Assembly (NCBI GenBank): GCA_030587525.1
Contig: JAUQYW010000355.1
Coordinates: 1-32,535 of the forward strand
Reading direction: 5' to 3'
Origin: Candidatus Sigynarchaeota archaeon
GTDB taxonomy: Archaea > Asgardarchaeota > Lokiarchaeia > Sigyniarchaeales > Sigyniarchaeaceae
Length of the DNA stretch: 32,535 nucleotides
In this document: in pieces, positions 402-3,226 of the stretch
How the letters are laid out: every line of letters starts with the position of its first letter
How positions within the stretch are numbered: the stretch's first letter is position 1
Notes under the pieces: model-generated
Seen by the model: only the letters and a program-made list of their open reading frames with translations
The model's database searches: none
What the model was told of the DNA's origin: nothing
Translations under genes and position numbers: made by a program

Positions 402-539
402 ATGCCGCGATATCGCACCGGAAAATTGACCGCAGCAGAAAAGAACAGGAGAAACCTGGGCTTCGCGATCATCTTGATTCTACTCATTTCCTTGGTCATC
501 ACGCTGGTCGTGTTCATGTCGACGTTCAAAGGCAGTTGA
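402..539 (+). CDS. Small single-pass membrane protein (45 aa)
   Basis: An ATG at 402 opens 45 codons ending at TGA 537-539. The peptide has a basic N-terminal half (MPRYRTGKLTAAEKNRR), then one strongly hydrophobic stretch of about 20 residues (residues 20-39, AIILILLISLVITLVVF core) and a short tail FMSTFKGS. This is a tail-anchor-like layout, by the positive-inside rule with the basic N-terminus in the cytosol. The next gene starts 8 bases later, so the two are surely co-transcribed. I considered Sec61-beta, but its conserved Pro/Gly motif before the membrane span is absent. Function unknown; the link to the gelsolin-like protein is inferred from position only. Confidence 0.6.
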   Translation: MPRYRTGKLTAAEKNRRNLGFAIILILLISLVITLVVFMSTFKGS

Positions 540-547
540 AAGAAGCC

Positions 548-1273
548 ATGAGCGAGAAAAAAGAGAAGGAAACGGTCAAGATATTCCGCTTCAACAAGGA
601 CCTGGGAGAGTTCGAGGAAATTCCACCTGAGAAGATACCACCAGATGGCATCAAGAAACTGCTTCAAGATAATCCGACGGATTCTTACGCCATATTTCAA
701 GTACCTTACATCGTTTGGTTATATCACGGTTCCCAGACGTCCGTGCAGACCAAGTTCACGTCGGCGAGGATGATCTCGAAGCTGCGCGATGATATCCTGC
801 TGGGGGCAAAGATCGTGACGGTCGACGAGGGGAGCGAGCCACTCCCGTTTAAATTCGTCACGAAGATGGCAGACCCAAAGGATTTCGGCATAGAGCAAGG
901 CGCGGCGGAATACAAGCCCGCGTACACGGGCACCGAGGAGGATATGACCAAGCTCGAGAAGATGTCGCTAGAGAAAGTTTCCCTCCTGCTCGAACAAATT
1001 CCCACACCTGACGGTTTCGAGCGCGAAGTGGTTATCCACGACAACGCACTCTATGCCGTGAAAAACGCGCGTCGCAGGTTCATGGGCTCTGAAATCGAGG
1101 AAATCGAGTTGATCCCGCTCCCGAAAGATGCGAGCATCGAAAGTGGCACATATCTCGCCAAAGATTTAAATCCCAGATTGTTCTTCGAGAATAACAAGCT
1201 CTTGCTCATCGAATTGCTCCGGAAAACCGAACAGCGGAAGAAGCAAGAAACCTTGTTTGACAAGCTGGCGTGA
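548..1273 (+). CDS. Gelsolin-like domain protein
   Basis: 241 residues from ATG 548 (an in-frame ATG at 395 would overlap the membrane peptide and add a shadow sequence). Residues about 10-106 follow the gelsolin repeat: an N-terminal strand and acidic turn (KIFRFNKDLGEFEEIP), then a hydrophobic core (YAIFQVPYIVWLYHGSQ), a helix with alternating charges, and a strand ending KIVTVDEGSEPLPFKFV, which matches the gelsolin pattern ending in V-x-E-G-x-E-x-x-x-F. Gelsolin repeats bind and sever actin in eukaryotes, and Asgard archaea encode short gelsolins acting on their own actin-like proteins (established). The C-terminal half (about 130-241) is unrecognised: a linker, a small alpha/beta segment and a basic tail. 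It lies between a membrane peptide and a RING-type gene, suggesting a membrane-linked actin or protein-turnover role (inference). No actin gene is in the window. Confidence 0.7.
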   Translation: MSEKKEKETVKIFRFNKDLGEFEEIPPEKIPPDGIKKLLQDNPTDSYAIFQVPYIVWLYHGSQTSVQTKFTSARMISKLRDDILLGAKIVTVDEGSEPLPFKFVTKMADPKDFGIEQGAAEYKPAYTGTEEDMTKLEKMSLEKVSLLLEQIPTPDGFEREVVIHDNALYAVKNARRRFMGSEIEEIELIPLPKDASIESGTYLAKDLNPRLFFENNKLLLIELLRKTEQRKKQETLFDKLA

Positions 1274-1306
1274 ACGCCAACCGCTGGCAAGAGAGGTGCG
1301 TGGCAA

Positions 1307-1678
1307 GTGGATGAAAATTCCAAGGAAAAACAAGATGACGACAAGACCATAACCAATATCAAGTTCAAGGCACTTGCCATAAAAAAAGACATCCCGATCG
1401 ATTTTTGGAAAAAAAAAGACGATGCCGATTCCGACGAGCCCACGATTCTCGAAGTGCACGAGGCAAACGAGGGCGTGCCGGTTCGGGGCAAATGCATCGT
1501 TTGCTATAAACCGATTTACCAGAACGATGCCGATGTCTTTTCATGCCCGAATTGTAGCCGTGAAGCGCATTACCTTTGTGCGACGATCTTCATCACGGAA
1601 CACCAGATTTGCCCGGTATGCTCGTCAAAGCTCCAAATCAACAAAACGACTGGAAAGTACACGGTCGTGAAGAAATAA
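1307..1678 (+). CDS. Small RING-type zinc-finger protein
   Basis: 123 residues from a GTG start preceded by a GAGAGGTG ribosome site about 9 bases upstream. Eight metal ligands are visible: C63-x2-C66, C80-x2-C83, H88, C91 and C102-x2-C105, i.e. a C4HC3 cross-brace pattern as in RING-variant or PHD fingers, with C-P-x-C at the last knuckle as in RING. Residues 1-60 are charged and probably disordered. RING proteins act as ubiquitin ligases by docking an E2, and some Asgard archaea carry compact ubiquitin systems that include small RING proteins (established). Here no E1, E2 or ubiquitin gene is nearby, so ligase activity is inference; a purely structural zinc protein is possible. It follows the gelsolin-like gene by 33 bases, probably in the same operon. 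Confidence 0.65.
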   Translation: MDENSKEKQDDDKTITNIKFKALAIKKDIPIDFWKKKDDADSDEPTILEVHEANEGVPVRGKCIVCYKPIYQNDADVFSCPNCSREAHYLCATIFITEHQICPVCSSKLQINKTTGKYTVVKK

Positions 1679-1768: not shown

Positions 1769-3226
1769 GTGAACCACGCCTTGGGAAAGAAAAAACGGCC
1801 AATAAAATCATCGGACGATGTTGAAGTACCGGAGGAGGAACCACAAGAAGTATCCGCCTCGGAAGGAGCCCAGCAAGCTCAGGAAATGCCGCAAGAAGTG
1901 TTCAAACCCGTCGATAAATCCAATACAACGATGGAGGAAGCAGAAAAACTGCAAGCCGAGATGAACCTCGGCACGTGCGGCCACGTGGATCATGGCAAGA
2001 CGACGTTGGTCCAGGCGTTATCTGGCGTGCGAACTGACCGGTACTCTGAAGAGGTCGAGCGAGGCATCTCGATCAAGCTCGGTTATGCAGATACGATCAT
2101 TGCGCGCTGCACCAAGTGTCCAGAGCCGGATTGCTATTGGACCAAGGAAATGATCAAGCAAGAGTTCCTGAAGAAGGGACAGAAGGCAAAGGAAATCACT
2201 TTCAATAAGTGTCCAGCATGTGGCGGGGACATCAAGGTTTTGCGCAAGATATCGTTTGTCGATTCACCTGGCCACGAAATTCTCATGGCGACCATGCTTT
2301 CTGGTGCATCCTTGATGGATGGGGCCATGTTACTCGTCGCAGCCGACGAGAAAGTGCCCCAACCACAAACCCGGGAGCACATGGCTGCCCTGGATATTAT
2401 GAACATCAAGAACATCGTGATCGTGCAAAACAAGATCGATGCTGTTCCCCGGGAGAAATCGATCGAAAATTTCCAGGGCATCGTAGCCTTTACGAAAGGA
2501 ACCGTAGCGGAAAATGCGCCGATCTTGCCTGTATCGGCCGTGTTCAAAACAAACTTGCACGAGCTGGTCATGTATATCGAAAAATACATCCCGACCCCCA
2601 AGCGAGACCCAGCGAAACTCACGCGATTTTTCATCGCGCGAAGCTTCGATGTCAATAAGCCTGGAACTAAGATTCCCAACTTGCAGGGCGGCGTGTTCGG
2701 AGGTTCCCTCGGCGGGGGAATGTTGAAGATGGGTGACGAGATCGAGATCAAGCCCGGCTTGAAGCTGGACGACAAGTACGTTGAATTGACCACGATGATA
2801 GAATCCATAAGCGTGGGTTCCGCTCTTGCCGATCAAGCAGGCCCGGGAGGACTGCTCGGCATAAAAACAAAACTTGATCCAAGCATTACGAAATCCGATG
2901 GCTTGATCGGTTGCGTGCTTGGAAAGAAAGGTCAATTGCCCCCGTCGACTGATAGCATCGCGATCAGTGCACAGCTGCTCGATCGCGTGGTCGGCACGCA
3001 GGATGGCTCCATGAAAGTCGAACCACTCAAGATCGGCGAGAACATCCTCGTCTCCATCGGTACGACAACGACCCTCGGGGGAATTACATCGATCACGAAA
3101 AATAAGGTCCGCCTTAAGCTCGTGCGCCGGATATGCTCTGACCCGGGAATGCCCCTTGCGATCTCGCGCAATTTCAACAATCGCTGGCGGCTCGTGGGTT
3201 GGGGAAAGCTCGAGGAAATCTCTTGA
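1769..3226 (+). CDS. eif2g: Translation initiation factor aIF2 subunit gamma
   Basis: 485 residues from GTG 1769. The GTPase subunit of aIF2, which carries initiator Met-tRNA to the small ribosomal subunit. G1 is GHVDHGKTT (71-79), G3 DSPGH (165-169), G4 NKID (221-224); the gamma-specific zinc knuckle is C114-x2-C117-x4-C122 with C148-x2-C151 between switch regions. EF-Tu-like domains II and III follow. Archaeal gamma subunits are usually about 410 residues; this one has an extra 60-65 residue acidic, low-complexity N-terminus (Glu, Gln and Pro rich). An ATG at 1931 (codon 55) could restore a standard length, but the extension keeps good codon character, so I keep the long start with reserve. 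It is followed by the deoxyhypusine-synthase-family and Tsr3 genes, a translation neighbourhood. Confidence 0.95.
   Translation: MNHALGKKKRPIKSSDDVEVPEEEPQEVSASEGAQQAQEMPQEVFKPVDKSNTTMEEAEKLQAEMNLGTCGHVDHGKTTLVQALSGVRTDRYSEEVERGISIKLGYADTIIARCTKCPEPDCYWTKEMIKQEFLKKGQKAKEITFNKCPACGGDIKVLRKISFVDSPGHEILMATMLSGASLMDGAMLLVAADEKVPQPQTREHMAALDIMNIKNIVIVQNKIDAVPREKSIENFQGIVAFTKGTVAENAPILPVSAVFKTNLHELVMYIEKYIPTPKRDPAKLTRFFIARSFDVNKPGTKIPNLQGGVFGGSLGGGMLKMGDEIEIKPGLKLDDKYVELTTMIESISVGSALADQAGPGGLLGIKTKLDPSITKSDGLIGCVLGKKGQLPPSTDSIAISAQLLDRVVGTQDGSMKVEPLKIGENILVSIGTTTTLGGITSITKNKVRLKLVRRICSDPGMPLAISRNFNNRWRLVGWGKLEEIS

Follow-up and report, generated by a model that had tools for sequence, protein, structure and literature searches.

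A small membrane peptide gene usually adjoins a gelsolin-like gene across the archaeal order Sigyniarchaeales

RESULTS

Three short genes in the window

A 32,535-nucleotide stretch of DNA from Candidatus Sigynarchaeota archaeon (contig JAUQYW010000355.1), which is called the window here, carries on its + strand the genes of a 45-amino-acid (aa) membrane peptide (402..539), of a 241-aa protein with a pI of 5.3 (548..1273), and of a 123-aa zinc protein with a GTG start (1307..1678). An original prediction, made from the letters of the window, had read these genes as one cluster of a membrane peptide, a gelsolin-like protein and a RING-type protein. Reading of the open reading frames (ORFs) bore out the three genes with their coordinates, as well as the gaps of 8 bases between the first two and 33 bases between the second and the third, and comparison with related genomes showed that the first two genes are paired widely in the order to which the window's genome belongs. 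The peptide contains 6 basic residues and 1 acidic residue, followed by a single C-terminal span, as in proteins of the tail-anchored type. The second protein, named gelsolin-X here, consists of a gelsolin domain (about residues 11–107), a linker, and a further domain named X (about residues 139–228), and the zinc protein ends in a putative C4HC3 RING-type domain (residues 63–105).

The peptide frame was compared with its counterparts in two loci of the same genus, L026 and L105. The differences at codon positions 1, 2 and 3 numbered 16, 8 and 21 between the window and L026, 17, 9 and 31 between the window and L105, and 3, 1 and 11 between L026 and L105, which indicates that this short frame is coding. 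An N-terminally extended gelsolin protein, in frame 395–1273, would cross the peptide in the gelsolin frame; it was ruled out, as the substitutions fit the peptide frame.

The peptide is paired with gelsolin-X at most loci across the order

A search for gelsolin-X covered 59 genomes of the order, among them that of the window. Matches at E <= 0.001 were found in 56 of them, and a full-length or near full-length orthologue in 48, at 50 places, with identity falling to about 30–40%; the remaining 11 genomes contained shorter matches or none. When a tandem pair in G010 was taken as one, this gave 49 loci, and the addition of L105 brought the number to 50. In 37 of the 50 loci, including L051, where the peptide is cut by the contig end, the direct neighbor of the gelsolin-X gene encodes a peptide of 41–58 residues with a basic tail and one C-terminal span. 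In two other loci the peptide is split by a frameshift (L050) or the locus ends at the contig edge (L073). The peptide is present at every locus in 6 of the 12 genera (g1, g3, g8, g10, g12, and g13), and at some loci in g5 (8 of 11) and in g9 (12 of 16, two of the 16 not being scorable). On the gelsolin tree the presence of the peptide needs at least 7 changes, 3 of which are forced by well-supported branches.

The peptide gene lies upstream of the gelsolin-X gene in 3 loci, all of the window's genus, and downstream in the other 34. The gene order is thus reversed in the window's genus, which means that the adjacency survived a rearrangement. The two genes overlap in L048, L061, L065, and L066, and overall the gaps between them range from –8 to 103 bases; these short distances suggest that the peptide and gelsolin-X could be co-translated. 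A strict rule for such peptides was satisfied at 37 of 49 gelsolin loci and by none of 251 control genes of the same loci, although the rule was fixed after the peptides had been seen, so that this control is post hoc; a loose rule was satisfied by 7 of the 251 control genes. Hence, the membrane peptide beside the gelsolin-like gene proved common in the order, and the pair of genes is both more widespread and better supported than had been claimed. The pair was not found described in the Asgard gelsolin, actin and ubiquitin literature as far as its sources were accessible, including parts of PMC9433394, PMC11417166, PMC12993045, PMC9834061, and PMC4917890, with most subscription papers outside the search. 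Outside the order, no such peptide adjoins gelsolin-X in G143 and G063, which hold the two longest outside matches among those listed.

The peptides were also compared by profile searches. A profile built without the window's genus ranked the three peptides of this genus first among 1362 ORFs (E from 1.5e-5 to 3.3e-4, the next match at 0.41), and in whole genomes it placed the G001 peptide first (E 0.003). By its basic tail, its one C-terminal span and its position beside gelsolin-X, the window peptide fits the gelsolin-linked family of the order, with weaker support at the whole-genome level. The full peptide profile was then run on 83 genomes of the class, where 49 gave matches at E <= 1e-5. 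Thirteen of these matches were in new genomes, and 12 remained after G165, which holds the L105 contig again, was left out. Ten of the 12 lie directly downstream of gelsolin-X on the same strand; the other two lie elsewhere in G161 (L169) and beside DNA polymerase B in G145, which is outside the order. Of these ten matches, that of L167 is interrupted by a stop codon, that of L170 covers only part of the profile, and the L159 peptide is identical to that of L033. This test is cleaner than the post hoc control, although most of the new genomes come from genera already in the profile. A known membrane family was sought for the peptide in Pfam, where 35 members gave only scattered weak matches.

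Additional gelsolin copies were noticed at some of the loci. In genus g6 a short gelsolin-like gene stands just before the gelsolin-X gene (L072, 4539–4868; L071, 4541–4909), and in three g12 genomes single-domain gelsolin copies adjoin gelsolin-X.

Gelsolin-X combines a gelsolin fold with a separate C-terminal domain

The single gelsolin-X sequence of the window had no match in Pfam and reached 2DGel3 in the PDB at just E 0.41. A profile of 47 orthologues matched Loki 2DGel (E 7.8e-8) and Thor 2DGel3 (E 3.5e-7) in the PDB, as well as Thor ProGel, and the Pfam Gelsolin family matched 3 of the 47 members, at best with E 0.015. In the AlphaFold2 model residues 11–110 adopt a gelsolin fold, with block means of the predicted local distance difference test (pLDDT) of 80–94. 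All 50 PDB fold matches listed for this N-terminal domain were gelsolin-family proteins or their complexes, the best being Thor ProGel (PDB 7c2f; TM-score 0.78 by target length). The gelsolin-like nature of the second protein, which is not visible to Pfam in the single sequence, is therefore established by the family profile and by the modeled fold. The window's genus sits on a long branch of the gelsolin tree (2.48), because of which its orthology rests on the best match together with the neighboring peptide. Actin-family genes are present in the window's genome, and gelsolin-X had no match among phage records.

The C-terminal half, from about residues 139–141, is modeled as a helix and five strands, and it had not been mentioned as a separate domain in the original prediction. 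When X was modeled alone from 54 sequences, the mean pLDDT was moderate (73.5) and the predicted template modeling score was 0.60. For the X domain, fold matches in the PDB reached E 0.11 at best and sequence matches were absent, and a comparison of its 54 members with Pfam returned weak matches to unrelated families only. Many families of the phylum also have it in longer gelsolin proteins, mostly in frames of about 260–345 aa. An 87-residue gene resembling a solo X domain comes after a gelsolin-X gene in G143 (L132, 4017–4912), and gelsolin proteins of L144–L146 contain two X-like repeats, as judged by eye. Longer gelsolin-X proteins of two genera adjoin a Roadblock/LC7 protein and a VWA protein of about 720 aa (L134, 300–4125; L135, 3924–7645), a neighborhood that is a second gelsolin-linked cluster.

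Among described Asgard gelsolins, the 1DGelX proteins of Lokiarchaea, two of which were counted in MK-D1 and three in GC14_75, would by their name also consist of one gelsolin domain and X, and the accessible parts of the source give neither a sequence of X nor a partner peptide for them (PMC9433394). Their likeness to the window protein rests on architecture and on this understanding of the name, and not on sequence. The Asgard 2DGel proteins (PDB 7whg, 7whf, and 7c2h) share with gelsolin-X a gelsolin-fold domain and profile similarity, but they have two gelsolin domains, whereas the second domain of the window protein was not modeled as gelsolin. They also differ in the long helix, where the glutamate of Loki 2DGel, which we take to be calcium-coordinating, aligns to T68 in the window and to methionine in the family consensus. 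This replacement makes calcium control of gelsolin-X unlikely. A calcium-regulated two-domain gelsolin was ruled out as a candidate, because the second domain has no gelsolin fold by model or match, and the glutamate is replaced. Thor ProGel, whose fold is closest to the N-terminal domain, likewise has no glutamate at the aligned position, but it is a single domain without X.

The peptide could hold gelsolin-X at the cell membrane

To our knowledge, the placement of actin control at archaeal membranes is an open question. The conserved pair is a small and testable candidate for a link between actin and the membrane in the archaea nearest to eukaryotes; Asgard archaea are close relatives of the ancestor of eukaryotic cells. 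According to the accessible part of one report, the actin scaffold of Loki-type cells extends into membrane protrusions (PMC9834061). The explanation that we prefer, and to which we give an even chance of being correct, is that the tail-anchored mini-protein holds the actin regulator gelsolin-X at the cell membrane, the two genes forming a conserved module. The C-terminal helix would fix the peptide in the membrane, and the basic tail, about 20–30 residues long, would lie in the cytoplasm; this topology is predicted from the C-terminal span and the basic tail by the positive-inside rule. The tail could bind acidic gelsolin-X, via the linker or X domain, or else the actin filament on which gelsolin-X acts, and gelsolin-X would thereby be held at the inner face of the membrane. 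Its gelsolin domain would bind actin with no need for calcium, as could be expected from the absence of the Loki 2DGel glutamate and from a fold closest to that of ProGel.

Several observations weigh against this proposal. The peptide is missing from 11 of the 50 loci, including every locus of four genera (g4, g6, g7, and g14, with one or two loci each), which shows that gelsolin-X can do without it. A fusion of gelsolin with a membrane segment was sought as well, but no span was predicted in any of the 7 larger gelsolin-domain proteins read, and the link between the peptide and gelsolin thus has no support from fusions. The window has Y-H-G where most relatives show W-x-G. The profile built without the window's genus placed the window peptide just second in the G000 whole-genome scan (E 0.13), and a G120 peptide, which lies outside the order and away from gelsolin, scored better (E 2.6e-5) than the G001 and window peptides. 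Finally, peptides of this kind are not confined to gelsolin loci: L136 and L168 carry them close to DNA polymerase B, and G161 has one elsewhere.

The presence of related peptides elsewhere outside the order (L136 and L168) is what would be expected if the peptide had a general membrane role, for example as a small translocon, stress or type I toxin-like peptide, and if its adjacency to gelsolin-X were an inherited gene order without joint function. The best NCBIfam match of the window peptide is indeed the type I toxin PepG1, at 16.8 bits against a cut-off of 70. On the other hand, the adjacency persists through the swap of gene order and the divergence of gelsolin to about 30–40% identity, while other neighbors differ among the loci read. 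Weak Pfam matches of 35 peptides involved 50 families, and the 25 of these that were listed include no translocon family. We consider a general membrane role rather improbable. In the two genomes outside the order, the peptides (L136, 3953–4090; L168, 3050–3190) lie near DNA polymerase B and small genes that look coiled-coil-like by eye, with a match to an intein domain in the L136 polymerase.

In the loci measured, the peptide tails have a net charge of +5 to +13 and the gelsolin proteins of –6 to –28. This match speaks for the proposed binding, but only weakly, because acidic proteins are common in archaea. The basic tail has no conserved motif, and its length and sequence vary. A tail of this kind is as compatible with electrostatic attachment to a filament as with attachment to gelsolin, and the peptide could be a linker between membrane and actin, with the tail bound to acidic filaments that gelsolin-X trims or caps there, and with no direct binding of gelsolin-X. 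The genes would then be paired because both act on actin near the membrane, and the same pairing data would follow. The variability of the tail counts against such a linker, and reading of the loci revealed no actin gene, although no profile search for actin was made there. Altogether, this explanation seems unlikely to us.

A putative RING-type protein adjoins the pair in the window's genus

The third protein was weakly related to known domains on its own. RING, Prok-RING_1 and PHD domains share with it the C4HC3 order of ligands, but all matches were below the Pfam cut-offs (Prok-RING_1, 20.6 versus 29.1 bits; zf-RING_2, 19.1 versus 27.3; PHD, 18.6 versus 24). The putative zinc-ligand positions C63, C66, C80, C83, H88, C91, C102, and C105 are invariant in three aligned orthologues (window, L026, and L096). 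The same genome encodes a 736-aa protein that can be aligned to the zinc protein over 79 columns with 39% identity and that passes the zf-RING_2 cut-off (27.7 versus 27.3 bits), which makes it likely that the zinc protein carries a RING-type domain; the predicted RING-type similarity thus gained support through this relative. Many genomes of the order have a protein of about 650–740 aa whose C-terminal part gives a RING-type match (L097, 2352–4562; L099, 4158–6209); its N-terminal part had no Pfam match when tested in L097. Matches to the zinc protein were found in 58 of the 59 genomes, and close orthologues (55–70% identity) only in the window's family, in G000, G001, L105, and G002.

The order peptide–gelsolin–RING is kept in the window, in L026 (G001), and in L105, a contig also contained in G165; L106, from a metagenome-assembled genome labeled Lokiarchaeota, is the same contig as L026. 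The window's gelsolin protein is 80% identical to those of Candidatus Sigynarchaeum springense (L105) and L106. Three of the four genomes examined in the genus have the cluster. G165 and G166 are classed as the same species as the window's genome, and G165 has the cluster with the L105 contig, while in G166 the peptide had no match and gelsolin was matched only in part, in a 331-aa frame, with no orthologue of full length. With 2.7 Mb, the G166 assembly is smaller than those of G165 (6.4 Mb) and of the window's genome (7.8 Mb). No same-strand ORF shorter than 220 aa with three CxxC motifs adjoins gelsolin at any of the 47 loci outside the genus. In G002, from the other genus of the family, the RING orthologue lies 76 bases from the contig end, which hides its upstream neighbor, and the gene of the translation initiation factor eIF2 gamma is next (L096). 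Hence, the cluster is not one ancient unit, and its core is the gelsolin-X/peptide pair, which the RING-type protein appears, from these comparisons, to have joined in the window's lineage (Sigynarchaeaceae). The three-gene order was found in three genomes of the genus and at none of the 47 outside loci, and of the joint reading of the three genes the gelsolin fold, the RING-type similarity and the membrane peptide beside gelsolin are supported, while one Asgard-wide unit is not.

In Sigynarchaeaceae the RING-type protein may direct ubiquitin to the regulator or to the targets of the regulator, or it may only share the transcript. A stronger version, in which the three genes of Sigynarchaeum form a functional unit and a RING E3 ligase, brought to the membrane together with gelsolin-X, turns over actin regulators, would agree with the order kept in three genomes despite differing flanks, with the 736-aa relative that aligns and passes the zf-RING_2 cut-off, and with E2-family matches in all 20 genomes searched (five in the window's genome). 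However, the Y-W of the 736-aa relative, in the helix that precedes the last two cysteines, is replaced by I-F in the zinc protein, and since a residue in that helix of RING domains often contacts the E2, a residue important for this contact would be missing. The lack of such a gene beside gelsolin in the 47 outside loci, and the position of the RING gene before eIF2 gamma in G002, also speak against the unit, which we regard as quite improbable. Returning to the preferred explanation, we suggest, tentatively and with more doubt than belief, that the peptide may be a dedicated membrane receptor recruiting a calcium-independent gelsolin-X. This would be an early way of coupling actin control to the membrane, joined in Sigynarchaeum to ubiquitin-type turnover.

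The surroundings of the cluster vary. In the window, the eIF2 gamma gene (1769..3226, + strand) directly follows the RING gene, and it is followed by genes of deoxyhypusine synthase and of a Tsr3-type ribosome biogenesis protein. A gene of 515–578 aa stands between the RING gene and eIF2 gamma only in L026 and L105. In the same two loci an inositol phosphatase gene, absent from that place in the window, lies directly upstream; this inositol monophosphatase gene (L026, 6691–7587; L105, 4865–5794) ends about 25 bases before the peptide gene.
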